Positions 4,362-26,001 are shown, counted from the first letter of the stretch. The stretch is DNA of 28,888 nucleotides from a virus (IMGVR_UViG_3300010885_029452:1-28888), one strand, 5' to 3'. Numbers and translations are program-made. The notes: a model not told the origin generated them from the letters alone.

Positions 4362-4663
4362 CGTTGTTTCTGCAATTCCGCCCATTCCACCAACCAGGCG
4401 TTCATTTGTTCGCGCCATCTCTTTTGCATTTCGTCTTTGAGTTCAGCAGCATTTACCTTTACCGGATTGTGGTAAAGATCAACCATCACAATATCCTCAT
4501 TGTTGTATAAACTAAGAAAGGTTATTGTCTCCGGAGTTGACTTGAACATGCCACCGGCGTGTGCAAACAACATTCGGGCTTCGTATTTTTCTTTCAATAC
4601 TCGATTTGCTGCCGCATGGTCAAAGCGGCTACGAGCTTGCTTGACAAGATTATTTGTATCCAT
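4358..4663 (-). CDS. Conserved-looking small phage protein of unknown function, 101 aa
   Basis: A short, charged, mostly helical protein: an N-terminal helix (LVKQARSRFDHAAANRVLKE), a central strand region (GMFKSTPETITFLSLY, EDIVMVDLYHNP) and a C-terminal amphipathic helix with several tryptophans (KRWREQMNAWLVEWAELQKQ). I recognise the general type as a small protein found near tail-fibre genes in aquatic T4-like phages, but no function can be assigned. It is the first gene after the terminator at 4690-4720 and ends in an ATGA overlap with the first glycosyltransferase-like gene, so it leads the distal operon. No Shine-Dalgarno sequence is visible before its ATG. The upstream bases instead contain a sigma70-like -10 box so close that the mRNA could be nearly leaderless. 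Confidence 0.82.
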   Translation of the reverse strand: MDTNNLVKQARSRFDHAAANRVLKEKYEARMLFAHAGGMFKSTPETITFLSLYNNEDIVMVDLYHNPVKVNAAELKDEMQKRWREQMNAWLVEWAELQKQR

Positions 4664-4669
4664 TGTTTG

Positions 4670-4698
4670 ATTGTACAGGAAAATGAGATAAAAGTAAA
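4670..4698 (-). promoter_or_regulatory. Possible sigma70-type promoter for the distal operon
   Basis: On the minus strand TTTACT (4698-4693) and TACAAT (4675-4670) are separated by exactly 17 bases, matching 4 of 6 and 5 of 6 positions of the TTGACA and TATAAT boxes. The -35 box overlaps the 3' arm of the terminator stem. The predicted transcription start would fall at or very near the ATG at 4663. A chance match in AT-rich DNA is possible. Confidence 0.4.
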
Positions 4699-7931: not shown

Positions 7932-10900
7932 TCATTCACCCTGTATAAACCTTGCTGCCACAGTGTCCTGTTCTTGCAGGGCAATACCGTTACTGGCAGT
8001 ACCGTCTCCGGGTGCATACCAGCTTAGACCGCGTTTAACCAAGACAGTGACCTGGTAATTTTCGCTAGGAGCGGTGGCAAACACAATTATCACTGGGTCT
8101 GCGGCTTGAATAACATAGCCGCCAGTTTGGCGTATTCCGCCAACATAGACTTCCACAGCTTCGTCTTGCTCAGTTGAATCCAGAGTTGCTACTGAAATAT
8201 CTTCAGCGGTAAATGTTGTTTCTACGCCGTCGGCCAAGAAGCTATCCGAAACCACGTAGTTTTGATATGCTGCTGGTAATCGGTTGCCGGATCCAATATC
8301 ATAAACTGCTGCACCCGCAGCATGATCGGCTGCGCCTGTACCAGCTGTACCTCTGCGTAATCCACTTACGGTATTATTCGCAGTATCTCTGCTGCGATAA
8401 GCAATACGCTCGCCGTTGATAGTTATCAGACCAAATATGCCTTGTGGTAAGTTTGGTTCGCTAAGAGCACTGGCATCTCGAACCGAGATAACGTCTGCTG
8501 TGGCTGACAGATTGGTCACAAGTTCAGTTGTAGTTGACGGTGTGATACGATATGTGCTTTGCAGACCGCGCATGTCTTGGAATATGCGGAAAACAATGGC
8601 GCCCGGTATTACACTGGCAGTATAGCTGGTAATACCGACCACTTGCGCGGCATTGATCACCGGGCCAGATATAGTAACTATTGATCCTTCTGCTGTATAT
8701 CCAATACCTTCAAACAAGAAAAATCCATCAAGTGTGACTTCAATTCTATCAGAATCTGCTATTGGACGGCCTGTGTCAAACTTATTGGTTTGAATCACGC
8801 TACCTGCGCTGTAGTCAAATGCCCCGGGTGCATTGTTTACTGTGCCGACATCGTAGTCAGTGTCGTCGTATCCTTGGCTGATCAACACACCTTCTGTACT
8901 TGGACCTTGGAATACCTGTGTTAGAATATTTTGTTCGCTGGTGTCATTGAACGTAGTCACTGACACCATGTCTCCAGCAATTGGAACCAAAGATCCTGTT
9001 GTTTTCCAAATTAGTGTATTGCCACTGATATAGTATTGGGCAGCAGTACGCACTGATATCAAGATTGTAGCACCTGCAGGTGGTGATGCGGTCAATGTAA
9101 CGGTTCTGTCTGTGCTGCCGTCATATGGATCCACTACAAATCCAATACCTAATACCAATGGCACGTTGTTGACATAAACACTGACATCATTATCAGAAAT
9201 TAAAGCCTGGCTGTAACCGCCGCGAGTTGGCAAATAGTATTGCAAGCTGGAACCGTCGTCGATGTATTCTACACCTTCTGCGGGTCTGGCTCTGATACCG
9301 TTCTTTTCCACAATTACGTTGGCAGGGTTAGTACCTTCCAAGCTGTTGGTCAATGTATAGGCAAAGTTTACACCGTCGGCCACAAAATACTGTGTGACAG
9401 GTATGCTCCATGAGTAGCCACCGGTGGTAGTGCCCATGGCAGTGATAACCAGTTGGTCGGCCGAGGTATATGCACTTGAGAATGTAACCTGTATGTTATA
9501 GGTATCATAGTCTGCAAATGTGTAATTGGTAATTAACTCACCGTTGACAAATATTACCATCTGCTCAACAAGACTGTATTCAACAGGCAATATCAGTGTG
9601 TTTGATTCTATATCTGTGCCGTTGACTGAGTTAACATAAAGCTGATTGCCGCCACCTAAGCTGTAGGCTGTTATCACCAGTGTATCGCCTTCCTGGGCGC
9701 CACCTGATACTGCGGCTGTTTGATCGGGCCAATCTAACTCAAAATCTACATCTGGTGTCAGCTGTACGCCGGTGGTCAAGTTGTAGACCTGTACAACCGT
9801 TGGGTAAGTCAACAATCCTGCCCAGTTATAGTTTTCTGTAGCTGCTGCGTACACATATCTACGTGACGACACCGGGAATCCGTGCCCGTTAACGTCCCAA
9901 TCTGATCCCGGAGTGGTAAACACACGCATGTCTAAGGTATCAAACATGGCGCCTGGCACTAGCTCTTCTGGTGCATGGCTTGAGTATGTGTCAACAAATG
10001 CACCACCGTCAACTATGATTGGGTTAGGACCAGTAGTAGGCGGCGCACCGTTGTAGGCCGGTGCTGGCAATGTGCCCAGGAACGGATCTGTAAACTCGCT
10101 AGCGTAGACAGCATCTAAGATAGCAGGATCATATGTGGGGCGACCTTCTGGACCATAAGCCAAGTTGTCAAAAGGATTGATGTCAAAGTTGCCTACATCA
10201 AAGCCAGTATTTTGATTGAAGTCCGGAGCAGATACCTGCACACCTGGATAATCAACACCGGTGATCAACAAGGCCAGGTCCAGACCAGGTTCATTCACTT
10301 CTGGCGTATAGTAACCCATTGTGCGGTCAACACCACTAAGGTCGCCGGCCGGAACAATGGTCCATTGGTCTGGATCAAAGGTCGAGCTTAGTACTGCGGT
10401 ACTGTCGTCAGAGTTAGCAGCCCATACACGATTGATGTATCTGACTTGTGTGCCGTTGTCGTACCCAACATCTGGTTCCCAATCTACAATAGTAGTTTGG
10501 TATTGATAACGATCGTACTTGATCGTGGTCACAATATCTCTTACTAGTCCATTGCCCATTACTGCCACGGCCCTGGCTCGTCGGCCCAGGTAAGTCAAGG
10601 TAGCAGTTCCGTCGGTCACCGGAGATACTGTTGCAGTAGGCGGCACTGCATTTAAGAATCCACCGACAGTGACGTTGTATACTAGCCCCGATGGAGTTTG
10701 GAATACTGTGCCAGAGAATACCTGAATGCTGCCTACCCAGACCACTGCTTCTGGTAATCCGCCCAGGATAGTTATTGTGGGAGTAGTGGCAAAATTATCT
10801 AACGTGCCAACAACATCAACAGCCACAACTACTCCGGCACTGCTGACACGACTGACTAGAGCAGTGGTCGGTTCACCATTTAACAACACATCTGGCGGCA

Positions 10901-13900
10901 CTTGATAACCAGCACCACCGTCGGCCACAGTTACTGATTCAACTGTGAGTAGATAGTTTTGATACCACTGGTTCCACGGTAACGTTTGCCAAACTTCGCT
11001 GCTGCTAGGTACGCTGCTGGTTGTGCTTAGTACTGGTGGAATTGCGTTGTCCAATACTGGACTTATGTAAAGATTTTCGGCAGCATCCCAATATGCCGGC
11101 AAATCAAAGTCGTTGACTGTGCCGCTGTACTGATCAAAGCCATCATATATCAAATTGAATTCACGAATTTGCACGTGATAAGGTTTAACTTCTTGAATAT
11201 AGTTCAATACAAAGTCTTGATTGTCCTTGCGATAAGACTGGAATGGTACCAATTCTCGTATGGTATGATTAACATCGATCAAGCTGGTCTTGGCTAACCA
11301 AGTTGGAGCTTGTTCTTCTGTCATAATGTAATTAAACATTAGAATCAATGCACGGTTACGTTCAATCAACAACTCACCAACCAATAATTCTTCGTTGACA
11401 GCTTGTATAATCTTACGTGTTTCAATTACCGGCTCTTGGTCGTAGTATTGTGCATCAAATACTTCGGTATCAAAGCCAAAGCGACCCAGGCTATAATCCC
11501 ATAATGTGGCAGAAAATTCTATTGTGCCATCTTGTAGACCCACTCTAGTCCAGGTCGGAACAGTGGCATCTGTCAGCTGATAAATTTCCCACTTGCCTTG
11601 AGCGTTGGCAGTTATCTTAACGCTGCTGCCTTGCGGTACTGTGATTGTATCCAGGGCTGAATAATTGGCAACTTCCACAATGATGCGTGTTGCTGAATTG
11701 TACCCGGGCTGGTACCAGTCGATATAACTCCAGTACAGTCGGGTGTCGTAGTTTTGAACTCTGACTAATAATAATACTTTTTCACCGGGTAATACACCGT
11801 TGGCAACCTGGTATATGGTCCATAAACCGTTGTTGGTCACATCGCTGGCCACCAGATACAAATAACCCACGTTCACTGCTGCCAAGTCTTGATAAGTTAG
11901 TTCTTCGTAGTTGGCCACACGCTTGTTCCACGCACCCGAATAACTTGACGGCTCGGGTTCTGAGCTGTTCAACAGATTGAACACACGAGCTTCTGCAATA
12001 GGAAGTTGTAATAGAACCGTATTGACACGAGTCAGATAGTTCTTCAGCGCCAAGAATCTGTTGACAAACATGCTCTGACGAGGTCTTGACGCCACACCAT
12101 ATCGTTCGCTGACAGGTGCTGTTGGGTCTGGTACTGACGCACCTGTTATGTCTACGCCACAGAAACTGTCTTGTAGCTTATTGTAAAGTTGAGGAGATAA
12201 AAATCCATCCGCTCTATCCTGTACTATCAATTGATATTCTATGTGTACCGCTGCATCATTGATAGTTTGGTCATATTCCACATGTAATATAGTGTCTTGT
12301 GCAGAGATATATTCTAACCCATTGTAGATGGCCACGGTGCTGGCGTTAAGCGGAGCAATATAACTTATACCACTGCTTCTGGGACTTTCAATGTAGTTGC
12401 GAATAGTTTCAATGCTGAGAGTTTTCTTAGCAGCAGTATTGACTGTGTTTATTCCCGAGACCCAGAAATAATATTCTGTTGAGAATATGCCTTGCTGATT
12501 TAAACTGCTGGAAATAACATAATTTCTGCTGTTCAACGGCGTTCCAGGACCTGTATAATCAACTGGCGCTACTGTGCTAGAAACCCATTGGTATACATCA
12601 ACTGAGCTGCCTGTAAACAATTGCCCCCATCGTCGGCTGGCATATACAACATCATCTTGATTTACATCAATGAATCTGGCATTGCCGGTATTCCACCAAA
12701 TTTCTCCCACATGATTTTGTGCCCAACTACTGCCGTAATTGTTGAGTTCGCCTACATTGTACGCAGCAGGATCTATTGCACCAATATAGTTGATGTTTTG
12801 TGCAACTACACCTAGCAATCGGCCTTGTAGCGGATCAAAATAATCAAAGTACTGCTTTGGCTTGTTGGTAACACGATCATACATGTAAACAGTATTCAAC
12901 AGGTTGATGTCGACCACCGGTTGCTGTACTCTCGTGACTTGCCAGGCCGGTAGCTGGTTATCATTTCTAAACCAAACAGCTCGCCCATATTCGGATGTAC
13001 TATCACCTTGATCGTTGCCAGGTGCACCTATTAACAAGGTACCAGTGGTGTAATCAATCCCGGCGCCAAACTCATCCAAGCTGGCCATCGAGTTATCAAA
13101 AATCTGTTGTCCAAATACAAACTGTGCAGGATTAGATACCGATGGTGAAGCAGATGGTAAACGGTCGTACAGATAAACCACACCGCTTTGTGCGATTCCG
13201 TCTGTGAATACAGTAGTCTTGGCATCAAACGTTGTGGTTTGATCGTCAAATGTCACAAACTCTATTACGGCACCGTTTGGTGCGCTGATCAGCAAACTGG
13301 TGGTGTCATCGCTGATAAACACTTTCTTGCCAAAGTTTGCATAAGACTGTGGCAACGGCGATAAGATCTTCTGTTGGTGAACATAGATATCAAATCCTAC
13401 ATCAGCAAATGCAGTTCCGGTGCCTGGCAAAACTTGCATTCTGTTGTAGGGAGTTGATGCTGCAAAATTCTTTACTGACAGAACCATTCTACCAGACACC
13501 ACGGTAATTACGCTGCCGTAAGTCGGAGCTGTAGTGAATGTTACAGTTTCGTTAGTGTTGCTGTACACATAGTTTACGCCGGCAGTTTGCACCACATCAT
13601 CAATTAGCACCAGGGTAGTATAAGATGCAGCAGCAGAATACACTGATCCAACGTCGAACACTGTGGAAGTTCCGTCACCTAACAATTCCACATCAGTGGT
13701 TGCAGCAGCTTGCATGTTGGGAACGTTGGCTGCGTTGATGTCGCTGACTAGGTCTTCTACTGTAGTGCCTGTGAGTGCAACAAAGAAATTACGAATACGC
13801 AGAGTGTTGCCCACTGTCAGCACAGGGTTGGCAACAGTGCTGGTGATTGTACCATACACACGAGCTTGGTTAATATCAAATTCTACAAACCCCGACTGCA

Positions 13901-16900
13901 ACAGTTCAGAGTCAGCAAATGGTGCTCCAATGTACATGCTGCAATCGTTGACGCACTGATCAACTGAATACCCAAACTGATCGCTATTGCCAGGAGTAGC
14001 TGATATGACTGTTTGTATCAGTACAAAGTTGTTGGTTTCAACTGTGACAATGTCACCCACAGAAATAGTAGTGTCAACCAGTGTCACTGTGCTGCCGGCA
14101 ACAGAGAACGTTCCTCCAATATTGCCGTCGGTATTGGTCAAGAACTGTCCGTTCAACAGGACCGAAACAGGTGCAGTTGGGGATTCTACAGTGGTATATG
14201 CAACCACACTGGCATCGGTTACTTGGAAATTCTGTATACTTCTATCGAAAACATACACAGTACCGGCGTCAGCAACGCCATCAACTGCAACAGTGGGAGT
14301 ACCTATTGTAACTTGGCGGCCGTCGGTGGTTGTAGATACACTGAATCCAAATTGTTCTGTGCTAGATAATCCTGGCACAGTTAAAGTATCTACCAAGGTG
14401 TAGTAAGTTTGTGCTTTTACAGAGATCAGTGCATCGTTGTCAGGTGTAGCGTCAAATATTAAATTCTGCGATCCATCAATTGTGTAGTCAATAACAGGAC
14501 GCTGTATTGCCGAATCAATATAGACCGCAACTGCATACTCATTGACAGCAGAATATATGTTGTACAAGCTGAAAATGGTAGTAGTTCCGTCGCCTACAAA
14601 AGACGAAGCAGCACGACGAGTAATTGTTATCAACGAACCTTCTGTTGGAGGAACAGGAAACACCACATAGTTGTCTGACACAGTGTAATCTATGTCAAAT
14701 GTTTGAATCTGATCACCAACGGCCACCGCCAATTGTTCGTCGGCAGCAATGACAATTTTATCGCTGTACAAGAATGAGTTTTGACTGGCACCTGCAATCA
14801 ATCTTGTAGATTGTGGTTGATAGTCTACACGTCCGTATGCATAAACAATATTTCCGCCAGGTGCACCCACATAAATCCAACGCTCATCTTGACTCATTGT
14901 AACTGAGTGTCCAAAGCGATCAGTAGCGGTTACAGCATCACCCGGGGCGATTGCCAGCAACTGTGCTTGTTCAAATACGTTTGAACCTGGGCCTCTATAG
15001 ATTACAGCAGCATATCCGCGATCAGCAGAACTGGCACTGGCACCAACAATAGCCCAGCTTTGATCGCCAATGTCAGACGCATTACCGTAACCGGCGGCAT
15101 CGGTGGTGCCTAGTTGTAAAATACTGTTTTGTTCATACACATTGTCGGGTGTCTTGACATAAGTGTACACGGCGCCGGGAGCATCAGACAATGCTGTGGG
15201 ATTATATCCTGGTGCACCAATCAAGGCGCTGAGGTTGCTGAGACCTTGAGCCACGCTGGCACCGAAGCGGGTATTTTCGTATTGTGTTTCTGGTGCAAGT
15301 TCGGTAGGCAAGCCAAACGGATCTGTTTTTTCGATAACTTCCCATAATCCGTCGCCGTTGTTGTCTACCCATACTCGGGCACCAGCTGTGAGTTGCAGTG
15401 CATATGGAAGATCAACAACATCAGCTGCTTGTGCAACACGGGCAGTCTGTAGAGTAAATCCAATGCCGGTACCTGTTACGACAGTTTGGAATCCAGTGAA
15501 CACATAATCAATCAACAAGGACGTGATATCTGTTACTACACGTACACGGTAAACACCGTTGATGCCAGGATCAAAGTACTTGATCACCAGCACATCACCT
15601 ACTGACAATCCGTGTGGTTTACTAAATTGTACCAAGGCTCGACCGTCTAAGTTGTCTGCAACAGATGTAATATCTCCTGATATTAGTTCGGCGCGATAAA
15701 CATTCCATTCGTAGGAATTAATTTTAGCTACCCAGATTGTAGTTGCTTGACCAATGTCGGCCGATACCAGACTGCCGAATCCTGCATCAAAATCAAAAAG
15801 AGTCAGGTCTACATCATTTAAGTTGACATATCCTGCAGTAGGTAATGCAACGTCAGCTGAGGATGGAACAGTAGTTGTAGGTAGGATATCAGGAGAATTT
15901 AATACTGTGCTGGACTTCCATACATTCTCTAATAGTACTGTTTGATCAGCTGCTGATTCCTGCTGTGGCAATACTACTTGAATCAAGCTAGGGTTGCTGA
16001 CTAGCAGGGCTTCGTTTAATCTCAGCTCAAAGTAACTACGATTTGCGGTGGCGCCGTATTGGCTGCGTAGGATGGCCCAATATTCGTAAATGTCGTATTG
16101 TGCTACTTCTTTGCCCAGGTCAGCAAGACTAAACAGTTCTGCTGCACGTATGGTACCTTTTGTTCCTAAGAATTGTTGGTACAGGTTGACCTGGCTTACG
16201 TCATCTAAGTTTAGAGCTTGCATGTATTCTCTTGGCCGGAATCCAATTAAGCCGTAGCTGAACAGGTCAACTTCAGATTCAAGATTGGCATCAAATACAC
16301 TGTAAGCTGTGGCCAACTGATCGCTGGCATTGGCTGCATTGGGTAACAGACCTTTTTGTATTGCACCGTAATCGCTCTTGATCCAAAGGTTGTAATTGAA
16401 TTCCCGAGTTGGTTGAATAATTGTGCTGGCAGACCAGTACTCATTCTTGAACAGTACAATCTCGCCTTTGGCATACTTGGTATCTGATTGCCATTGCAGA
16501 ATATTATCCTGGTTAAGAACAAAACCAGGTGCATTAACAGTACCGTTCCAGGCGCCGCTGAGATTACCGGCGATCAAAATACGATTCTGTCTAGCGCCAG
16601 TTGCTGGTTGATAAATTAAGTCGGCAAAAATGCTACGGTTGTCTAGGACCATTATATGTTCATAGGCAGTGAATTTTAAATTAACAAAGTTTATAGTATC
16701 ACTAGTTAGAGTTGTTATCTTAAACAAATTGTTTAAACGCTCAATTACCATGTTGCCGGTTGACAATGGCTGGCGATTTTGATTCAAGATAATATCTTCT
16801 GGACTATATGTTTTAATGCTGTCAACTACACTAAGCGGTTGATCAACACTGATGCTGGAAGCAGCTGGATTTAGGTTAATGATTGTACCGACTGCCCAGC

Positions 16901-19900
16901 CTTGTTGAGTCCAGTAAACAAATTCCTGGGCCATCTGCAGCCAATCAAGAACATATCCATTTTCTCTATCGGCAAATACCAAGCCTTGATTTTCCAGCAG
17001 TTTGCCGTAGCTGACCAAGAAGTCACACACGCCGCCAATGTTGGTGAATGTAAATCCGTATGGAACTTTAACTACATTTGTAGTGTGCTCCAGCGAAACT
17101 CTGACTTCGTCGGTGCCAATGACAACTGTCGAATAACGGCCACTTGGTCTTGACACTAATATTTCAAAGTAAGGATTCCGTGTACTGTATCCCAGTACAG
17201 TATACCCAGCTTCGACCTTTTGAATGATGACTGAGCTGTAGGTTATTTCGTTGAAGGGCTGATTCTTGTACAGCAACAACTGATAACTTTCGTCAGGTAA
17301 TAGCAAGCTGGTATTAAGGCTGCTAGGTGTAGATCTTTCGGTATAAACTTTCAGGTAATTCTTATCGCCGAATGCTGCCATTCTCCAGCATAGACGTATA
17401 TCAATATTGTTCAAGGCTAATGTAAGATTGGTTGTTGAGTTGATACCCAACTGACGATTGTAGTCAATGATCCAGTTTAAATAACTGGCCTTGCTGGTAC
17501 CATTACCGTATAACGGTGTTAGTTTTTTGGCATCTAACCGATACCGACCATCCCAGAGATACTGGTCCAACGGTGCATCAAACACATAGCGATCACGATC
17601 AGACAGCAGGCTAAAGAATTCAGCTGGCTTAGTTAATGCCAGAAGTCGCATGACCGCAAACGGCCAAGCACTGCTGGTACGCCAAGTGTTTTCTACAGGG
17701 CCGTCATCACCAAATACCCAGCTGCGACGGAAACTGGTAGCATCGTAATTGCCAATGACTGAATACAGCGGGCTAACCAATTGACCTTCTGAATCAACAG
17801 GTAATACTCCCAACAATTCTGGACGAACAAAACGTGGGTCAACTCTGTAGTTGCCGGGTTCCTTAATAAGACCGGCAGCCAAATCGTCCCATAGAACTGT
17901 GTTGCCCGAAGTGTACGGCGCATCGCCGTATTCTGCTGACCACCAATCGGGTTCCTCGGTCAAGCCCAGCATCTGCCACGGTGTTGAATCTGGTGTGTAA
18001 GTATCGTAAAAATAATTGTAAAGGCCGCGCCAGGCTCCAGCTTGGGCCGGTTCTGTAGTTAGTACATTAGAACTCTGACTATAGTTGTAGGTAAATTCGT
18101 TTCCGGCAATATAATTTTGCGTAGAATAATCTAATTTGTTCCACCCTACCCAGGTCAAAAAGTCAGTGCTGAGAATATCGTTGACTTGAGTTAAAGTATA
18201 GTCAGTAGTTCTAAATTGACCAGGAATAACATCCTCTGATATCAGTGGTATTTTGGAAACAATCTTCAAGTTGTTGAAAATTCTCTTTTCAAATTCTAAC
18301 AGCACCTGATCTCTAACGTCATTAAATGCCAATGTGATAGAACCATCGTGCCCACGAATCACTACACGAGGATCAATGTACGTGGTATCAACGTAAATTG
18401 CCGGACGGAATGCAGGGTAAAGCCCAATCTTGGTTGGAGTATTGGGCACATAGTTGCCGTATGTTGTAGGATATTCGCGAATCTTAATAACATCACCAAC
18501 TGCTAATGCTGTAGTAATAACAAGACTTGGTGCATCTACCACTACATCATAATCGTATCCACGAGTCAATAGTGTACCGTTTAAGAATACCGACAGTCCC
18601 AAGTAGTTTGATGCTGTAAAATCATAGGTCTGTACCGTATCAAATGTGGGTGTGCTGACAAACGAATAAGTGTAGGTATTTTCAGTATACGTTTCGCCTG
18701 CAGTGATCATGTCCGACCAGTAGAATGGCGATATCTCGCTGCGGCCTAGGCTGATCTCCTGCAACACTGTGTCAAGTACTTGTGAGGCTGTTAAGTTTTC
18801 AAAGTCACCGTTGACAGTAAGATCCAACAACAAGGCCTTGAACTTGGAATATTCTCTGCTGTTGAACTCCAACGAATTAAACAGTTCAAACTGTTGCTCT
18901 CTCAAAAACACACCAGTTAGTGCCAACGGCGACGAGTGTTGAACAATAATATCGCCATAGGTAATAATATCACCCAAGTCACGGCTGTTGTTGGCTCCAA
19001 CAATCGGGCCTTGGATAGTTTTTAGATTCTGACCAATACTTTCGTAGTGTGTGCGAATAGTACCCAATGTAAATGTGTTGCTGTTTTCGTTCAACGGATT
19101 ATTTTCTAAATTTAGCGGTATTTGATAGAATCCAACACTACTAGTTTGGCTGCTTAGAACTTCCGCTTCAATTACCGCACCTATTGCTACACTATCTATT
19201 AATGTTATAGTGGTAGAATTTGTTCCTACTGAGTAAGTGTAGTTTGAAGGATCTATAAAAATACCTTCCACAAATAACTGTATTGGTACATATACTGTTT
19301 CTGTGTCAACGGCAATATCTAGAACCAATGGTGATTGATCGTATACAAAACTAAACACCTGACGACTGCGATTTTCGGCAGCAGCACGTTGCCATCCTAT
19401 TAGGCTGCCAAACGTCACACGATCAATGTACTGTCTAACGAATCCTGTGCTGATTGCCAATTCTGTACTGGCATTATTTCGTACGTAAATGAACGTGTCG
19501 GTGTAAAGATAATTTTGAAATACAATGTCGCCTACATTGTTGATGTTGAGATAACGCAACGGAAATCCCAAGAACTCGTCAATAATGTCAGTTGACCCGG
19601 CGGCATATCCAAACAGTTGGCTACCTCGAAAAGTGGTACTGGGATAAACAGCAAGATTACCAAAGCTGATACCATCAATATCAAACACATCAAACAAGGG
19701 CGGTTGATTGACGTTGAGTTTTTCTTGCGCCGGTAACCAGTTAACTCCATCAAACCAAAAACTTTTTCCTTGCAGCGTATTCCCGCTCAAGGAAACTACC
19801 GTTTGATTAATTAATGCAGTACAATCAGTGCATTCAATCAAATCAATAATTAAGGTACCGCTGTTGTTGGGATCAATGAACTGTACTTCGTAAATTTTAT

Positions 19901-22052
19901 TGCGTACATTGGAATCAAGATCAGCAGCAAATATTACCCGGCTTCCGTTGATGAATGTGTAGCCATCAATACCGTAACCACGCTGCCCGTTTATATTGCT
20001 AAGAGCATCAGTTTCGTTAAAGTCAATGACATTGACTGGTTGCTTGCCTTGTGTTCCAAAATTATAAAGGTCGATGTTGGCCCGAAATTCAATAACAGGT
20101 CGTTTTGCACGTTTGCGATTGTCAATTGTCTGATCTTGATTATTATAGGTAGCTGTGGCTCTAATGACATCAATATGGAACCAGCGGTTACTACGTGCCC
20201 ACGCATTGAGGTCTCGGCTGGCACGATTGATGGTAATATAATCTGGTACAGCAGGTGCATTCAAACTGGAGTCGTAGGGTTCGCTGTCGTAGCTGGTGCT
20301 GTCGTATGGAACTGTTGCGCTGCGTGTATATGTTTCAGGAGTTACAAAATCACTCACTGGTAGTAGTTTTATACCGTTTCCTATGTTAACACCTGAAACT
20401 GGTGTGCTAGTTAGTGCTGCGCCTGCAGGAGCACCTGCACCTGTATTCAATATACTTTCTTCTACTGTTTTGTAAATGTACTGCTGAAAGGTAGTGGTAG
20501 AATGTATCGCTCCAGTCATTAACTGGCCTTGATATATGTGGGCAGCACCAAAATAAGCTTCACCATCTACGAATCCTATACGAACATCAACTCCAGGACC
20601 GGTACCAACACCCTCTACATAGTATTCTAAGTTTTGATAACGAGCAGGCTCAACCAGTCCGCGGAACTGCACTTTAAGTCCATTAGTAAACACCACTCCA
20701 TTGGGGCTGGTATAATTTTTAGCACCAATGATGTCGCCTAGATCAATGAATAACTCGTCGCCTGGATCTACCAGTCTGATGCGGCCATACAAGGCAGGAT
20801 TCTCACTGTCTTGATAAAACAGATCGTCAAGCACCGCAGTCAACAATGGAACTTGCTGGAAGTATCCTTCAGCATCTTTATACCATTGAGTGCTGGCGTA
20901 ATCTGTTCCAAAATTAATAACAAACTTGCTGAAGTTAGGAATCGTCTCAATGCTGGTCAACTGCATAAACGGATTGCCAGACAAGTCCTTAATGTATTGA
21001 ATCTGCCAAATACTGTAACGCAGTGTCTGGCTGTCAATGTTGGTGGTTTGATCAAATGTGGTTGTATCAAAACTGCCAAGACCGCTGACTACATTGCCAG
21101 CATTGGGCAAAGGATCAAACTGTGTGGTCACTTGCCATCCGCCTGATTCTGCATCAGCAGTGGTGTTGGTAAAGATTACAGTACGACCATTGAGGTTGGT
21201 GATACCATCAATTCCGGCTGGGTATTGAGCCAGAAACTCACTGACATATACATTGTTTAGTTGATTAAACTTTAAATCTGTCAACAAATCTACAGTGCCA
21301 ATATTGGTCAGTGTGTAATAAAAGTCTTGTGCTGTCTTAAGCGGAACGTTGAACGTGACTGTGCCTTGAGATTCGCCGTTGTTGACAACTCCCAGGACAT
21401 CTCTGCTGCTGATATTAGAAGCAGCAGGCATTGTTCCACTGATACCCGGTGCTGCTTGAATCCAGAAATTAAATCCAGGTTGATTAACAACAAAGTCGTA
21501 GTTGCCGCCGCGTATCAGAGTCAATGTAGGATTACCGCCGGCGAGATCGCTAAATGTATAAGCTGTTTCTCCGCGTGTGATATCCCATGAGTCTGTCAGC
21601 GCAATTGGTGTTCCAAAAACATCAACTGAATCTGGACCTTGCGGTAACCAATAATATTGACTGTAGTTTGTAAACTTATCTAGATCGCAGAACGGATCCC
21701 ACGTATAGTATTCGCTTTTGAACAAGGCATCTTGTCGTGTAGTATCAGCACCTCTGAGATTTAGTGCGTCAATAATGCCCGGATACGTAATAGCATCTGC
21801 TACTGTGTTTGTGTCAGGCTTTAAGAAAACAACACCAGGTTCAAGTTGATAATCGCTACGAGTTACAGTTGGTTCTGTAACATAGTTGTCAGCTGAATTT
21901 ACTCCAGGGCCGACTCTACGTCCTACATATCCTTGTGTGCGTTTAATAACAGCTTCTTGAGTCAGCTGATCAAGTGTGGCACTGAAGAATTGTTTGTTCG
22001 TTTGAGTACGAAATATTTCTGGTAGTAGGTCTACGGTGCGACGTGTAGCCAT
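7932..22052 (-). CDS. Giant 4706-aa virion structural protein (distal baseplate/tail fibre region)
   Basis: One uninterrupted frame of 14.1 kb directly follows the gp6-like gene with a TAATG junction and a GGGAG ribosome-binding site. The N-terminus (TVDLLPEIFRTQTNKQFFSA) and the LYSVIGNYDATSFRRSWVF region near 1430 are of the kind found in very large structural proteins of aquatic T4-like phages. Beta-sandwich modules with a V-Y-V-N-G, D-Y-T, A-P pattern recur at about 915, 1150, 2430-2545, 2625, 2790 and 4085-4675. Residues 2263-3030 form seven FG-GAP-like blades. A mixed region of about 3050-3700 has helical, charged segments (for example VNEELLVGELLIERNRALIL). The C-terminus ends QEQDTVAARFIQGE. 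It sits where T4 has gp7 and the later wedge and fibre genes and may replace several of them. Role as structural protein is likely; wedge versus long fibre is unresolved. Confidence 0.85.
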   Translation of the reverse strand: MATRRTVDLLPEIFRTQTNKQFFSATLDQLTQEAVIKRTQGYVGRRVGPGVNSADNYVTEPTVTRSDYQLEPGVVFLKPDTNTVADAITYPGIIDALNLRGADTTRQDALFKSEYYTWDPFCDLDKFTNYSQYYWLPQGPDSVDVFGTPIALTDSWDITRGETAYTFSDLAGGNPTLTLIRGGNYDFVVNQPGFNFWIQAAPGISGTMPAASNISSRDVLGVVNNGESQGTVTFNVPLKTAQDFYYTLTNIGTVDLLTDLKFNQLNNVYVSEFLAQYPAGIDGITNLNGRTVIFTNTTADAESGGWQVTTQFDPLPNAGNVVSGLGSFDTTTFDQTTNIDSQTLRYSIWQIQYIKDLSGNPFMQLTSIETIPNFSKFVINFGTDYASTQWYKDAEGYFQQVPLLTAVLDDLFYQDSENPALYGRIRLVDPGDELFIDLGDIIGAKNYTSPNGVVFTNGLKVQFRGLVEPARYQNLEYYVEGVGTGPGVDVRIGFVDGEAYFGAAHIYQGQLMTGAIHSTTTFQQYIYKTVEESILNTGAGAPAGAALTSTPVSGVNIGNGIKLLPVSDFVTPETYTRSATVPYDSTSYDSEPYDSSLNAPAVPDYITINRASRDLNAWARSNRWFHIDVIRATATYNNQDQTIDNRKRAKRPVIEFRANIDLYNFGTQGKQPVNVIDFNETDALSNINGQRGYGIDGYTFINGSRVIFAADLDSNVRNKIYEVQFIDPNNSGTLIIDLIECTDCTALINQTVVSLSGNTLQGKSFWFDGVNWLPAQEKLNVNQPPLFDVFDIDGISFGNLAVYPSTTFRGSQLFGYAAGSTDIIDEFLGFPLRYLNINNVGDIVFQNYLYTDTFIYVRNNASTELAISTGFVRQYIDRVTFGSLIGWQRAAAENRSRQVFSFVYDQSPLVLDIAVDTETVYVPIQLFVEGIFIDPSNYTYSVGTNSTTITLIDSVAIGAVIEAEVLSSQTSSVGFYQIPLNLENNPLNENSNTFTLGTIRTHYESIGQNLKTIQGPIVGANNSRDLGDIITYGDIIVQHSSPLALTGVFLREQQFELFNSLEFNSREYSKFKALLLDLTVNGDFENLTASQVLDTVLQEISLGRSEISPFYWSDMITAGETYTENTYTYSFVSTPTFDTVQTYDFTASNYLGLSVFLNGTLLTRGYDYDVVVDAPSLVITTALAVGDVIKIREYPTTYGNYVPNTPTKIGLYPAFRPAIYVDTTYIDPRVVIRGHDGSITLAFNDVRDQVLLEFEKRIFNNLKIVSKIPLISEDVIPGQFRTTDYTLTQVNDILSTDFLTWVGWNKLDYSTQNYIAGNEFTYNYSQSSNVLTTEPAQAGAWRGLYNYFYDTYTPDSTPWQMLGLTEEPDWWSAEYGDAPYTSGNTVLWDDLAAGLIKEPGNYRVDPRFVRPELLGVLPVDSEGQLVSPLYSVIGNYDATSFRRSWVFGDDGPVENTWRTSSAWPFAVMRLLALTKPAEFFSLLSDRDRYVFDAPLDQYLWDGRYRLDAKKLTPLYGNGTSKASYLNWIIDYNRQLGINSTTNLTLALNNIDIRLCWRMAAFGDKNYLKVYTERSTPSSLNTSLLLPDESYQLLLYKNQPFNEITYSSVIIQKVEAGYTVLGYSTRNPYFEILVSRPSGRYSTVVIGTDEVRVSLEHTTNVVKVPYGFTFTNIGGVCDFLVSYGKLLENQGLVFADRENGYVLDWLQMAQEFVYWTQQGWAVGTIINLNPAASSISVDQPLSVVDSIKTYSPEDIILNQNRQPLSTGNMVIERLNNLFKITTLTSDTINFVNLKFTAYEHIMVLDNRSIFADLIYQPATGARQNRILIAGNLSGAWNGTVNAPGFVLNQDNILQWQSDTKYAKGEIVLFKNEYWSASTIIQPTREFNYNLWIKSDYGAIQKGLLPNAANASDQLATAYSVFDANLESEVDLFSYGLIGFRPREYMQALNLDDVSQVNLYQQFLGTKGTIRAAELFSLADLGKEVAQYDIYEYWAILRSQYGATANRSYFELRLNEALLVSNPSLIQVVLPQQESAADQTVLLENVWKSSTVLNSPDILPTTTVPSSADVALPTAGYVNLNDVDLTLFDFDAGFGSLVSADIGQATTIWVAKINSYEWNVYRAELISGDITSVADNLDGRALVQFSKPHGLSVGDVLVIKYFDPGINGVYRVRVVTDITSLLIDYVFTGFQTVVTGTGIGFTLQTARVAQAADVVDLPYALQLTAGARVWVDNNGDGLWEVIEKTDPFGLPTELAPETQYENTRFGASVAQGLSNLSALIGAPGYNPTALSDAPGAVYTYVKTPDNVYEQNSILQLGTTDAAGYGNASDIGDQSWAIVGASASSADRGYAAVIYRGPGSNVFEQAQLLAIAPGDAVTATDRFGHSVTMSQDERWIYVGAPGGNIVYAYGRVDYQPQSTRLIAGASQNSFLYSDKIVIAADEQLAVAVGDQIQTFDIDYTVSDNYVVFPVPPTEGSLITITRRAASSFVGDGTTTIFSLYNIYSAVNEYAVAVYIDSAIQRPVIDYTIDGSQNLIFDATPDNDALISVKAQTYYTLVDTLTVPGLSSTEQFGFSVSTTTDGRQVTIGTPTVAVDGVADAGTVYVFDRSIQNFQVTDASVVAYTTVESPTAPVSVLLNGQFLTNTDGNIGGTFSVAGSTVTLVDTTISVGDIVTVETNNFVLIQTVISATPGNSDQFGYSVDQCVNDCSMYIGAPFADSELLQSGFVEFDINQARVYGTITSTVANPVLTVGNTLRIRNFFVALTGTTVEDLVSDINAANVPNMQAAATTDVELLGDGTSTVFDVGSVYSAAASYTTLVLIDDVVQTAGVNYVYSNTNETVTFTTAPTYGSVITVVSGRMVLSVKNFAASTPYNRMQVLPGTGTAFADVGFDIYVHQQKILSPLPQSYANFGKKVFISDDTTSLLISAPNGAVIEFVTFDDQTTTFDAKTTVFTDGIAQSGVVYLYDRLPSASPSVSNPAQFVFGQQIFDNSMASLDEFGAGIDYTTGTLLIGAPGNDQGDSTSEYGRAVWFRNDNQLPAWQVTRVQQPVVDINLLNTVYMYDRVTNKPKQYFDYFDPLQGRLLGVVAQNINYIGAIDPAAYNVGELNNYGSSWAQNHVGEIWWNTGNARFIDVNQDDVVYASRRWGQLFTGSSVDVYQWVSSTVAPVDYTGPGTPLNSRNYVISSSLNQQGIFSTEYYFWVSGINTVNTAAKKTLSIETIRNYIESPRSSGISYIAPLNASTVAIYNGLEYISAQDTILHVEYDQTINDAAVHIEYQLIVQDRADGFLSPQLYNKLQDSFCGVDITGASVPDPTAPVSERYGVASRPRQSMFVNRFLALKNYLTRVNTVLLQLPIAEARVFNLLNSSEPEPSSYSGAWNKRVANYEELTYQDLAAVNVGYLYLVASDVTNNGLWTIYQVANGVLPGEKVLLLVRVQNYDTRLYWSYIDWYQPGYNSATRIIVEVANYSALDTITVPQGSSVKITANAQGKWEIYQLTDATVPTWTRVGLQDGTIEFSATLWDYSLGRFGFDTEVFDAQYYDQEPVIETRKIIQAVNEELLVGELLIERNRALILMFNYIMTEEQAPTWLAKTSLIDVNHTIRELVPFQSYRKDNQDFVLNYIQEVKPYHVQIREFNLIYDGFDQYSGTVNDFDLPAYWDAAENLYISPVLDNAIPPVLSTTSSVPSSSEVWQTLPWNQWYQNYLLTVESVTVADGGAGYQVPPDVLLNGEPTTALVSRVSSAGVVVAVDVVGTLDNFATTPTITILGGLPEAVVWVGSIQVFSGTVFQTPSGLVYNVTVGGFLNAVPPTATVSPVTDGTATLTYLGRRARAVAVMGNGLVRDIVTTIKYDRYQYQTTIVDWEPDVGYDNGTQVRYINRVWAANSDDSTAVLSSTFDPDQWTIVPAGDLSGVDRTMGYYTPEVNEPGLDLALLITGVDYPGVQVSAPDFNQNTGFDVGNFDINPFDNLAYGPEGRPTYDPAILDAVYASEFTDPFLGTLPAPAYNGAPPTTGPNPIIVDGGAFVDTYSSHAPEELVPGAMFDTLDMRVFTTPGSDWDVNGHGFPVSSRRYVYAAATENYNWAGLLTYPTVVQVYNLTTGVQLTPDVDFELDWPDQTAAVSGGAQEGDTLVITAYSLGGGNQLYVNSVNGTDIESNTLILPVEYSLVEQMVIFVNGELITNYTFADYDTYNIQVTFSSAYTSADQLVITAMGTTTGGYSWSIPVTQYFVADGVNFAYTLTNSLEGTNPANVIVEKNGIRARPAEGVEYIDDGSSLQYYLPTRGGYSQALISDNDVSVYVNNVPLVLGIGFVVDPYDGSTDRTVTLTASPPAGATILISVRTAAQYYISGNTLIWKTTGSLVPIAGDMVSVTTFNDTSEQNILTQVFQGPSTEGVLISQGYDDTDYDVGTVNNAPGAFDYSAGSVIQTNKFDTGRPIADSDRIEVTLDGFFLFEGIGYTAEGSIVTISGPVINAAQVVGITSYTASVIPGAIVFRIFQDMRGLQSTYRITPSTTTELVTNLSATADVISVRDASALSEPNLPQGIFGLITINGERIAYRSRDTANNTVSGLRRGTAGTGAADHAAGAAVYDIGSGNRLPAAYQNYVVSDSFLADGVETTFTAEDISVATLDSTEQDEAVEVYVGGIRQTGGYVIQAADPVIIVFATAPSENYQVTVLVKRGLSWYAPGDGTASNGIALQEQDTVAARFIQGE
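8030..9800 (-). repeat. C-terminal tandem beta-sandwich modules of the giant protein
   Basis: Within residues of about 4085-4675 at least five modules share a pattern of a strand with (V/I)x(V/L)NG or similar, a DY or GY turn, a hydrophobic strand, an AP or equivalent loop and a closing ITV-like strand. Examples are MVIFVNGELITNYTF, VSVYVNNVPLVLGIGF, IEVTLDGFFLFEGIGY and VEVYVGGIRQTGGYVI. This resembles N-terminal modules of T7-type tail fibres. The repeats are diverged in protein and are not obvious at the DNA level. Confidence 0.65.
12965..15266 (-). repeat. Seven FG-GAP-like blades in the giant protein (beta-propeller)
   Basis: Motifs of the form FGxSV followed by (I/V)GAP begin at residues of about 2263 (FGASV, LIGAPG), 2320 (degenerate GYGNAS, IVGASA), 2380 (FGHSV, YVGAPG), 2568 (FGFSV, TIGTP), 2693 (FGYSV, YIGAPF), 2907 (FGKKV, LISAPN) and 2995 (FGAGI, LIGAPG), several followed by a VY or VW strand and an aromatic. 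Seven copies is the number needed for an integrin-alpha-like propeller. The first three are 57-60 residues apart; later ones are separated by inserted beta-sandwich modules. Confidence 0.75.
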
Positions 22053-25000
22053 TAGTAACTACTCCCTGTTGGCGTGCCTTGACTGATAGATGTTGGGTAT
22101 AGTCCAGACACAGTGGTTTGACTGCGAATGTTGCTTTGTGTAAGAGCATCAATGACTTCAACGTCGGCAACTGTGGCAGCACTGACAAAAATTTCATTGG
22201 CTGCGGAACGTATTTCGTACAGGTCACCAAAACTCTTGAGAGGATTCAGTGGTACCAGTACCACCGAACTCACAATTGATCCTAGCTGTGTATGCAGGTA
22301 CGCTGACAATTCGCTGAAGAAGAAATTATCACCAAAATCCCACTTGTCTATGGTAAAGTATTCATTCACATTGGCAATCACTCGACTCTTGATTTCGCTT
22401 ACACTTGCTGTGGTATTGGCAGCACGGACTACCTTGATTGTGGCTCGGAGTTCTGGTGTTGCTTTAACCCCAAACAGAGGTTTAAATACCACAGAGTTCA
22501 GAATCATATTGTCAGATATCATCTTGTAATCGTTAAGCTCAGAATAAGCCACACTAAGATCATTAATGGTAGGTGCAGTAGGTTCTTGAACAGAGCCAGT
22601 TGTATCTTTGATATAATTTTGATAAGCAGTATAGTATTCTTGATTGACCAGATAAACATCAATAATGTTGGTGATACCCGGATCAATCACATTGGTTAAT
22701 CCGCTGTTGTGACGATATTGAAAGTATAGATCCTGGCGACCAACTCTGACTGTAAAATCAGCTCTGGGTAATATAGTGCGTTGTATGACACCGTTGATAT
22801 TGTCAATCACCAGCTCGTAAAAGAGGCCGCTGGTGTAAGCGTAGAAAATTTGTCCGTTAATGTATTGACTTTTTACCAATTCAATAGCATCTTTGGTAGC
22901 ATACGTTGAATTAACTATGCCGGCTGCAACTGGAAGATAATTTTCAGTGTTGTTGGCATCTGTTGTTAGTTGCAGGAATACCAGCTTGGAATTGGGATTA
23001 ACTGATGGTGCTACAATTTCGTCGAAGAAGTCTGGGTTATCAGCAACGCCGTCGGAATCACTGTCCCTATAACTAACTACAACTTGAAAATCGTTTACAT
23101 ATCCGTCGCTTTGAACCGGCTGAGCAATGATTTCCATTGAGATGTCGCCACTCAGCGGCGAGTTTGAATCTGGTTTAGAGTTGGTTTTAAGTACACGAAC
23201 AAAATCTTTTATTACTTTACCAGTTTTACTGTCGTATATTTTTTCGCTGGTATCAAAGAAAAATCTAGTTTCAATAATGCTGGCAAAGATATAGTCTAAT
23301 CCGCGTGTTGTTACAGAGTATGATTGACCATTACTTACAAACTGTGCCAACCAGCTGGCGTCAAGCGCAATGCCTTGTGTATTTTGTGCATACTGTAGGC
23401 TAAAGGCAGAGTCTTCAGCAAGATTAGTGCTGGTAATAATGTACCATGTCGCGGTCAGATTATTGTAACCTAGACCAAAATTTCTAAATAATTCAATCTG
23501 TTGCAACATACTTTGTTCGACACTGGCCGGAATATCATCTATAAATTTTGGAATTACTTGTTGTGTTAAAGCACCAGTAGGCACAAATACATTAAGTGCG
23601 ACAGGACCAGACCCATCAGGTAAATTGCCCAAGCCCGATGCAGTACCTTCAAGTACTACTGCGCTTACAGTGGCCCATATTTCTAATTTTTCATCTGCCC
23701 GTATCGGGACGCCAGCAACCAAGCGGTTATTGGCATCAAAGAAATAACCAGCAGGAGGAATAAATTTCACCAAAGAGCCTTGCGTAATATACTTGGCGTT
23801 GTTACTGGCATATCCTCCAATGTTTTGCGGCGTTAGATTGCTGGTATTGTAAAAATAGCCGGTGGTTTCATTTACCACTGTTGTGCTTTGGTTCCATGCT
23901 AGATTTAACACCAACAAGTTAGGGCGTAAAAAGTTAGCATAATAAAACTGCAACAAGCTTCTTGAACTCAGTAATGGTTCAATTGAATTTGTAATGACAT
24001 CTACAATGTCGTTACGGTTAATCCAATCAAATTCAAAACTATTCAACGGGTTTTCTTTGTACAACATACCGTCGCCGGCAAAAATATTTGTACTTGAATA
24101 CTTTCCAGTCACGTCTGTCAGGTCAATGTATCGTGTAGTACCAGTGGCGCTACGTGCCACTGCCTTGCTTTTTACAATACTGTTATAACGGGTAAACGGA
24201 AAGTTATTGTAATCTTCACCGTTGACCATACGATTCTGTGTATAATAACGAGCAGGCGCACGTTGCTTAATTTCTTGAATTGTTTCGCGCGGTTGAGCAT
24301 TGCTAACAGGGTTAGTAATACCACAGTTAAATGTCAATACTTCGTTGCGACCGTATCTGCTGACATAGGTAACCTGCAACACAACACTTTGCATTTCTTC
24401 TGGATTGATAATATACTGCAATCCGTTTGAAGCACGAACATAGGTACGAAAAAATCCCACAGGCACTTCCGAGAATACACCGTCACCAAACGTCAGAGTG
24501 ATCTGATCATTTACACGGCTTGTGATACTGTAAATTTTTCTTTGATTCGGCGCCAACTGTTCGATTGCTGCCGCGTAAATACTTTCGGCATACGCCCACT
24601 CACTGGCCACTGTTCCGACATCGTCTAGTTGATATAGCCAATAATCTTCGTTGTTGATTCCTTCAATGTTGATTTCAACTGTGCGATTGGTAATTGCTTC
24701 GGCCAAATTAAAGTCTTGGTTCTGTAATACTCCCTGCTTGAACAAAAAGAAGAAGCCAGTATTGTTGGATCCAAACCCCAATTGATCGTTACGGTATAAG
24801 ATATTGAATTCGCCGTTGGGCTGCGGTGCTGGTTCGTACACATAGTTTTTGCCTTGTGTTGACGAACTCACTGCTTCAAATGGCATGTTTATTCCGTCGA
24901 CATTAGAAGTGTAGGGTATAACTGGTAAAAATCCAGCGGCAAAATTTATAGTATACTCTGCGGTCTCAACACCCAATATTGTTTGTTTGCTGGCAGGGCG

Positions 25001-25513
25001 TCCAAATTTTTGACTGTCAACAAATGCTGCATTCATTACATAGGTAAATTGCTCAAGCCAATTAGCGTTGGTGGGATCATTCCAGTTGATGGTGACATTT
25101 GATAAGTTGACACCGTTGAAGTCTGTAATACTTTCTGTGGTTTGTACAGAAAACACTTTCAAGAAACTTTGTGCTGCCTGATTACGCTTGGGAGTGTAGC
25201 TGACTAAATCGGCTAACCTAACTACCGAGTCTCGGCGTTCTGCTGTGTCTAGAAAATTCTCTCGTGCATTTAAATCATTACGGAAGGCCAAGGCTTGACC
25301 CATAAATGCCATGACATCAAGAATTGCTATGAATTCCGATGACTCAATATAGTCGTTGAAAGTTTCTGGATAATATAAACGCAGATAGTCTACAAAACTC
25401 TTACGTAGAGTCTCAAAGTCGTAGCTTTGGAAGTCGGCTTCTCTGTAGGTCTGGTACAGACGCTTCCAATCTTCTACTCCAAATATTGCTGTTTGTCGCG
25501 CAGTCTTAGCCAT
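22052..25513 (-). CDS. 6: Baseplate wedge protein, T4 gp6-like, 1153 aa
   Basis: The N-terminal 120 residues are characteristic of gp6/gpJ-type wedge proteins: a helical start (FETLRKSFVDYLRLYYPETF), NDYIESSEFIAILDVMAFMG, then RNDLNARENFLDTAERRDSV and VVRLADLVSYTPK, which set the protein's dimerising core. Further on, QEIKQRAPARYYTQNRMVNG and EDYNNFPF match the conserved domain of baseplate J-like proteins. T4 gp6 holds the inner baseplate ring together with gp7, gp25 and gp53; this copy is much longer than the 660 residues of T4 gp6, mainly through beta-rich insertions in the middle. The ATG at 25513 has GAGAT as ribosome-binding sequence and a TAATAAATA late-promoter-like box about 19 bases further upstream. 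Its stop overlaps the start of the giant gene. Identification is confident; the symbol follows T4 naming. Confidence 0.93.
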   Translation of the reverse strand: MAKTARQTAIFGVEDWKRLYQTYREADFQSYDFETLRKSFVDYLRLYYPETFNDYIESSEFIAILDVMAFMGQALAFRNDLNARENFLDTAERRDSVVRLADLVSYTPKRNQAAQSFLKVFSVQTTESITDFNGVNLSNVTINWNDPTNANWLEQFTYVMNAAFVDSQKFGRPASKQTILGVETAEYTINFAAGFLPVIPYTSNVDGINMPFEAVSSSTQGKNYVYEPAPQPNGEFNILYRNDQLGFGSNNTGFFFLFKQGVLQNQDFNLAEAITNRTVEINIEGINNEDYWLYQLDDVGTVASEWAYAESIYAAAIEQLAPNQRKIYSITSRVNDQITLTFGDGVFSEVPVGFFRTYVRASNGLQYIINPEEMQSVVLQVTYVSRYGRNEVLTFNCGITNPVSNAQPRETIQEIKQRAPARYYTQNRMVNGEDYNNFPFTRYNSIVKSKAVARSATGTTRYIDLTDVTGKYSSTNIFAGDGMLYKENPLNSFEFDWINRNDIVDVITNSIEPLLSSRSLLQFYYANFLRPNLLVLNLAWNQSTTVVNETTGYFYNTSNLTPQNIGGYASNNAKYITQGSLVKFIPPAGYFFDANNRLVAGVPIRADEKLEIWATVSAVVLEGTASGLGNLPDGSGPVALNVFVPTGALTQQVIPKFIDDIPASVEQSMLQQIELFRNFGLGYNNLTATWYIITSTNLAEDSAFSLQYAQNTQGIALDASWLAQFVSNGQSYSVTTRGLDYIFASIIETRFFFDTSEKIYDSKTGKVIKDFVRVLKTNSKPDSNSPLSGDISMEIIAQPVQSDGYVNDFQVVVSYRDSDSDGVADNPDFFDEIVAPSVNPNSKLVFLQLTTDANNTENYLPVAAGIVNSTYATKDAIELVKSQYINGQIFYAYTSGLFYELVIDNINGVIQRTILPRADFTVRVGRQDLYFQYRHNSGLTNVIDPGITNIIDVYLVNQEYYTAYQNYIKDTTGSVQEPTAPTINDLSVAYSELNDYKMISDNMILNSVVFKPLFGVKATPELRATIKVVRAANTTASVSEIKSRVIANVNEYFTIDKWDFGDNFFFSELSAYLHTQLGSIVSSVVLVPLNPLKSFGDLYEIRSAANEIFVSAATVADVEVIDALTQSNIRSQTTVSGLYPTSISQGTPTGSSY

Positions 25514-25560: not shown

Positions 25561-25935
25561 TTAGATAAAACTGGCTCTGCGAGATTCTTGATCGAGAAAT
25601 AGAGACAACAGTTGTGCTTCTGAACTGTTTACTGTTCTGATGAACAGCTCTATTAGAATGCCATTTTCTTGTGGATATATCTGTGCATCTTGCAACGAAA
25701 CTCTTGGATCGCCACCGGCAACCCGTTGCAATTCAGCCAACATGGATTCAGTGGTATCAGTTGCTTGATTTTCAAACACATAACTCCATATTATTGTCCC
25801 GTACTCAGGACGGCCTGGTACCTCTCCCTTTTGAATGTTAAAGGCATTGGCCAAATCACGTTTGATCAACTCAAAGTCAACCAAGGTAAATTTTTTATAC
25901 TGATTAATAGTATTAAATCCAACAAATGTAGTCAT
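25561..25935 (-). CDS. 25: Baseplate wedge/sheath initiator, T4 gp25-like, 124 aa
   Basis: Length (T4 gp25 is 132 residues) and sequence fit the GPW/gp25 family. After a helical segment (FELIKRDLANAFNIQKGEVP) comes GRPEYGTIIWSYVFEN, which holds the family's conserved E-x-PxR-P-E-Y-G turn, then a helix with LAELQRVAGGDPRVSLQDAQ and closing beta strands. In T4 gp25 joins the gp6/gp7/gp53 wedge and starts sheath polymerisation; the fold resembles a sheath-subunit fragment and type VI secretion TssE. The gene lies between the gp5-like and gp6-like genes, the expected late order. The ATG at 25935 is preceded at some distance by AGGA. It has its own 48-base leader, which contains one arm of a stem-loop. 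Confidence 0.93.
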   Translation of the reverse strand: MTTFVGFNTINQYKKFTLVDFELIKRDLANAFNIQKGEVPGRPEYGTIIWSYVFENQATDTTESMLAELQRVAGGDPRVSLQDAQIYPQENGILIELFIRTVNSSEAQLLSLFLDQESRRASFI

Positions 25936-25965: not shown

Positions 25966-26001
25966 CTTGCTGCAAAAAATCTCTTACTTCTTTGCAGCAA
26001 G
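25966..26001 (-). other. 11-bp stem-loop spanning the gp5-like stop codon
   Basis: CTTGCTGCAAA (25966-25976) and TTTGCAGCAAG (25991-26001) form a perfect 11-bp inverted repeat with a 14-base loop that contains the gp5-like stop codon at 25984-25986. On the minus strand it is not followed by a T run, so it is not a standard intrinsic terminator. It could act as an RNA processing or stability element, or affect translation termination. A chance origin from the Ala-Lys-rich tail is partly possible, since one arm encodes the sequence KLAAK. Confidence 0.6.

Follow-up and report, generated by a model that had tools for sequence, protein, structure and literature searches.

A predicted seven-bladed FG-GAP_2 propeller with modules inserted into three of its blades in a giant baseplate-associated protein of uncultured jumbo phages

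The stretch analysed is a 28,888-base viral record in IMG/VR (IMGVR_UViG_3300010885_029452, referred to throughout as the window). On the minus strand, like every other window feature listed here, it encodes a giant virion structural protein of 4,706 aa (7932..22052), which very probably contains a seven-bladed propeller of FG-GAP type with further modules inserted into it. The gene lies directly after that for a gp6-like baseplate wedge protein (22052..25513; phrog_10646, E 5e-286, with tblastn matches to CBB, RaK2-group, and Atu_ph07 gp6), which is preceded by genes for a gp25-like baseplate wedge protein (25561..25935; PF04965, phrog_43) and a gp5-like baseplate hub protein (25984..28710; phrog_13211, E 1e-32, Phage_base_V). 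A homologous giant gene is also placed after gp6 in PA5oct, Atu_ph07, RaK2, CBB, 121Q, and Phosso. The giant protein itself scored 1044 bits against phrog_10938, the RaK2/PA5oct/CBB-type "virion structural protein", and shares with it, besides this gene position, three blocks of sequence. The N-terminal ~1,500 residues are conserved in the RaK2, CBB, 121Q, PA5oct, Atu_ph07, Phosso, and SCTP-2 groups of cultured jumbo phages, a block in the last third (~600 C-terminal residues of the query) is conserved in the same groups, from RaK2 to SCTP-2, and the block directly after the propeller is likewise conserved in cultured jumbo phages. Homologues have been detected in virions by mass spectrometry, both in PA5oct (gp355; record note) and in CBB, for which 21 peptides of CBB_236 were found (PMC5259590). 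An earlier reading of the DNA sequence alone (the original prediction) had placed the protein in a phage tail; the gp5-, gp25-, and gp6-like neighbours and the virion proteomics of the homologues bear this setting out, and the protein encoded in the window is probably a virion component as well.

The propeller repeats extend from residue 2263 to residue 3030 of the giant protein (window 12963-15266, -). FG motifs start at residues 2263, 2380, 2568, 2693, 2907, and 2995, and blade 2 was found at 2322 as a degenerate YG...GAS repeat, giving intervals of 59, 58, 188, 125, 214, and 88 residues between successive motifs. The seven repeats of the original prediction, and the uneven spacing after blades 3, 4, and 5 to which it drew attention, were thus recovered. 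Five occurrences of the strict pattern FG-x-[SAK]-[VI]...GAP were found, whereas shuffling the protein gave an expectation of 0.007 (~700x). The Pfam family FG-GAP_2 (PF14312; cut-off 23 bits) was matched by the whole protein with 43.7 bits (E 3e-11) and by the excised propeller region with 56 bits. When the blades were scanned singly, blades 1, 3, 4, 5, 6, and 7 matched FG-GAP_2 with E values of 5e-4 to 0.05, each falling under the per-sequence cut-off, and blade 2 had no Pfam match; FG-GAP was therefore detectable in 6 of the 7 segments, where the original prediction had called for at least 5. Single-blade profiles also recovered most of the other blades. A relative is encoded by 451 candidate IMG/VR stretches, 80 of which were drawn on here, and 26 of 27 sequences tested matched FG-GAP_2 at E<=0.1, with PF01839 (FG-GAP) marginal at best in 2 of 27. 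No VCBS or FG-GAP_3 model was among the Pfam matches of the whole protein or of the propeller region, so that VCBS, one of the families named for checking in the original prediction, was not detected, and a whole-protein sequence search of solved structures gave no match. By score and predicted fold, the propeller is assigned to FG-GAP_2.

Structure prediction, suggested as a check in the original prediction, returned a confident model. AlphaFold2 was run on residues 2190-3061 (872 residues; 12870..15485) with an alignment of 86 sequences (A3), from which the conservation counts below were also taken, and gave a pLDDT of 91.5 and a pTM of 0.90, with the strand order A-B-C-D recurring seven times (28 strands). 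The best matches of this model in the Protein Data Bank (PDB), as found by Foldseek, were seven-bladed integrin-alpha propellers aligned end to end (best E 6e-10; top 50 all <1e-7), with TM scores of up to 0.62 when normalised by the 440-residue integrin chain. Predicted viral structures were matched as well, an uncultured Caudovirales protein first (E 3e-33) and some named FG-GAP repeat. The confidence scores and the end-to-end alignment point to a closed ring of seven four-stranded blades. Blade 1 comprises residues 2250-2313 (15114..15305; FG-GAP_2 E 0.028 singly, with strands seen in the model), blade 2 residues 2314-2368 (14949..15113; four strands in the model), and strands A-C of blade 3 residues 2369-2410 (14823..14948; E 7e-4). 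Strand D of blade 3 is continuous with strands A-C of blade 4 (2549-2607; 14232..14408; E 5.5e-4, with strands in the model), strand D of blade 4 with strands A-C of blade 5 (2677-2731; 13860..14024; E 0.052), and strand D of blade 5 with blade 6 (2889-2985; 13098..13388; E 0.045), the B-C loop of which reads FD..TT.FD; blade 7 completes the series (2986-3045; 12918..13097; E 7.8e-4). Ahead of blade 1 lies a hairpin, RVWVDNNGDGLWEVIEK (residues 2225-2243; 15324..15380), which probably belongs to the scaffold, because propeller-less relatives have a similar hairpin. This hairpin (15324-15380, -) also resembles the closing hairpin RAVWFRNDNQLPAWQVTRVQ (12930-12983, -) and an earlier hairpin, TIWVAKINSYEWNVYRAE; a scaffold hairpin may have been duplicated or taken over when the propeller was inserted.

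The original prediction located the additional modules between the blades, which is the wrong topology. In the model (numbering + 2189 = residue of the full protein), strands C and D occupy positions 213-220 and 361-368 in blade 3, 408-415 and 487-493 in blade 4, and 532-539 and 701-707 in blade 5; since these strands flank the inserts, each insert is part of the C-D hairpin within its own blade. The divergent relative L042 has no counterpart of window residues 2407-2545 and essentially none of 2604-2673, corresponding to inserts A and B, and its own model (pLDDT 78, pTM 0.83), which matches seven-bladed WD40 proteins, has tight hairpins at the two sites (170-176/180-187 and 230-238/241-249). 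Insertion in the D-A loops, as seen for the alpha-I domain that separates blades 2 and 3 of integrins, is suggested by the raw motif spacing, and a few relatives do have occasional insertions in D-A loops (2373, 2561, 2986). With strand D of blades 3, 4, and 5 coming after the insert and before the next FG strand in the window model, and with direct C-D hairpins at the insert A and B sites of L042, this arrangement is the least probable of those considered. Almost as improbable is an arrangement in which the seven segments form several blade clusters, with beta-sandwich domains between them, rather than a single ring. Such clusters would fit the long interruptions and the lack of a Pfam match for blade 2; in direct coupling analysis aimed at the hairpin that closes blade 7 (86 sequences, effective number 59), the scores of known strand pairs barely exceeded background. 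They are difficult to reconcile with a pTM of 0.90 over 872 residues and with an end-to-end Foldseek alignment to complete seven-bladed propellers at TM scores of up to 0.62 on target length. Each integrin blade has its 1-2 and 3-4 loops at a shared end, the calcium end (PMC3192720); therefore, inserts A, B, and C, which belong to three adjacent blades, should emerge from the same face on the same side and would line up along one rim of the ring.

Insert A, in blade 3, consists of two modules, A1 (2414-2482; 14607..14813), which is missing in L042 and related by hidden Markov model comparison to A2, to the nested module, and to C-terminal modules, and A2 (2484-2548; 14409..14603), a GDGTTT-type module with related modules in relatives that match Phage_T7_tail. 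Insert B, in blade 4, is a single beta module (2610-2676; 14025..14225) and is likewise missing in L042. Insert C, in blade 5, is seen in the model as a flagellin-IN-like domain (2732-2888; 13389..13859), with weak PF07196 matches in relatives, and itself carries a nested module of 66 residues (2786-2851; 13500..13697). By profile comparison, the GDGT-type modules A1 and A2 and the nested module are mutually related, and they are also related to modules at 1133-1192, 4166-4205, 4287-4335, and 4604-4670, the last three of which uphold the kinship with C-terminal modules of the giant protein that had been proposed in the original prediction. Modules in relatives match Phage_T7_tail, CBM_5_12, or CBM_X2 in Pfam, mostly weakly. 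The nested module of insert C is present in 34 of 86 sequences and absent with clean edges in the other 52, with no intermediates, and on a tree of the flanking segment its distribution needs at least 4 changes, against a mean of 25 after shuffling. On the same tree, 13 changes are needed for a carbohydrate-binding module (CBM)-like insertion in the insert C domain, and 13 likewise for an additional stretch in insert A. By these counts, modules have been gained and lost repeatedly. Module A2 has an extra NGGTGY-type stretch nested within it in L035:10028-13141 and L027:10028-13369, and in 27 of 86 sequences the stretch at this position exceeds 50 aa.

The propeller occupies a variable slot in the giant protein. 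The same flanking blocks enclose ~170-180 residues in RaK2, CBB, 121Q, and PA5oct, which have no propeller and a slot ~800 aa shorter, and nearly 1,000 residues in the window. Two relatives have, between these flanking blocks, a YHYH domain (PF14240) in place of the propeller (L045:10019-11203, 1e-32; L047:7035-8189, 5e-28; Pfam). SCTP-2 (L133) has about 300 extra residues in the slot, which look LamG/concanavalin A-like by eye only (residues ~2110-2340 of its gene 140 product) and have no Pfam match. Across ten relatives, the propeller bins ranked with the least conserved parts of the giant protein. The contigs that carry propeller-bearing relatives reach 344 kb. A tblastn search of 50,697 phage records with the region from the window, L042, and L046 found no counterpart of the propeller, returning at E<=10 weak partial matches only, mostly to insert modules; none of the cultured phages searched carries it. 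Screening 84,980 prokaryote species genomes gave no relative, and hence no host. The propeller is best explained as a single cassette spliced into a giant protein that is conserved and baseplate-associated in uncultured jumbo myoviruses. More tentatively, the fixed slot may be a cassette site that is either empty or filled by an entire ligand-binding domain (propeller, YHYH, or LamG-like), with the propeller accepting modules in its C-D hairpins and these accepting further modules, making a three-level nested, laterally decorated adhesin that would diversify by insertion and not by point mutation. Among the relatives, the giant proteins of L038 and L042 measure 6,391 and 6,227 aa.

Integrin-alpha propellers were the best match among solved structures; they too have seven FG-GAP blades and provide a precedent for an inserted binding domain, the alpha-I domain, which is inserted into the FG-GAP propeller between blades 2 and 3 (PMC3192720). 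This alpha-I-type insertion, present in only some integrins, is not found in the phage propeller, in which the inserts are placed in the C-D hairpins of blades 3, 4, and 5 instead. The phage blades differ further in lacking DxDxDG loops and in being matched by FG-GAP_2 rather than PF01839. Across the 86 sequences, none of the seven A-B loops contains a DxDxDG calcium motif, and so the propeller is not an integrin-type calcium propeller. The only DxNxDGxxE string in the window lies in the N-terminal hairpin, and with just 7 such strings in 86 sequences a calcium-binding reading was rejected. Beta-propellers also occur in host-recognition parts of phages, as in PhiKZ gp131C, the five-bladed phi11 receptor-binding protein (RBP), and the PRD1 P2 head. 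The seven-bladed C-terminal propeller of PhiKZ gp131 (gp131C) is found at the baseplate periphery of that jumbo phage, and a role in host binding has been proposed for the propeller of the phi11 RBP (PMC4901313). In contrast to the element described here, no nested insertions are described for these propellers in the material accessible; they were absent from the top 50 fold matches, and there was no sequence match to solved chains. An open-access literature search for FG-GAP in combination with phage baseplates or jumbo phages returned no relevant paper. As far as this search shows, nested C-D hairpin insertions in three adjacent blades of a jumbo-phage baseplate-associated protein are undescribed.

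As to function, a laterally decorated closed propeller serving as an exchangeable adhesive element at the baseplate periphery is the favoured reading, with a probability of roughly 0.55. The ring would form a rigid platform at the periphery and, as the phage adsorbs, present the host surface with the insert modules and its own loops, the propeller as a whole acting as the exchangeable adhesive element. Consistent with this are the variable slot, the baseplate neighbours, the homologues in virions, the repeated gain and loss of modules, the weak similarity of some modules to CBM_5_12 or CBM_X2, the low conservation of the propeller region, and the use of propellers as receptor-binding domains by other phages. 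For surface binding as a claim by itself, the odds are about even, and the adhesin role named in the original prediction is to be read with the same caution. Several points weigh against an exchangeable adhesive element. Closure of the ring is read from confidence scores and Foldseek. Inserts A and B are retained in 84 of 85 relatives and are not hypervariable (mean identity 33-43%, versus 42-60% for the blades), and may therefore have a structural role. Among named families, the GDGT modules are most strongly related to the T7 tail-fibre N-terminal domain, by which fibres are anchored to T7 virions. The similarity of the inserted GDGT modules to this domain (PF03906) and to DUF2460-type modules is weak to moderate, and whereas they are embedded in propeller hairpins here, the domain forms the fibre N-terminus in T7.

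The decorated propeller could instead be a structural hub in which T7-tail-type modules dock fibres or baseplate neighbours, with no contact to the host. Phage_T7_tail was matched by 7 of 27 relatives tested (best 1e-7), in L035 within insert A, and the near-universality of inserts A and B in the clade and the similar modules elsewhere in the giant protein would also suit a hub. However, RaK2, CBB, 121Q, and PA5oct build virions with a propeller-less homologue, which weighs against an essential structural role, the propeller region evolves faster than its flanks, and a different domain is present at the same site in other relatives; a hub is judged possible but clearly less probable than the adhesive element. 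An enzyme, e.g. a glycan-degrading depolymerase, is very unlikely. Its site would lie in the B-C loop of blade 6, FDDQTTTFDAKTTVF (residues 2935-2949; window 13206-13250, -), in which none of the 86 aligned sequences, some at 25% identity, departs from D2936, T2940, and D2943. This invariance was taken from alignment A3, as a regular expression that proved too strict caught 56 of 122 regions. No credible enzyme family was matched in Pfam, the best fold matches are binding propellers, and a structural role of the loop is equally likely; the loop could form a site for a ligand or a metal, or serve as a structural clasp.

Most of the giant structural proteins encoded by jumbo phages are without a functional label. 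With insertless, partly inserted, and fully inserted relatives coexisting, the slot, the ring, and each module have clean boundaries and can be tested separately. The element also adds to the integrin-like propellers a phage branch that has no calcium loops and carries its insertions in a different loop. Within the ring, a CxxxC motif (CVNDC; residues 2700-2704; window 13941-13955, -) was noted in the A-B loop of blade 5, with both cysteines present in at least 90% of relatives; the pair is a possible disulfide or metal site.

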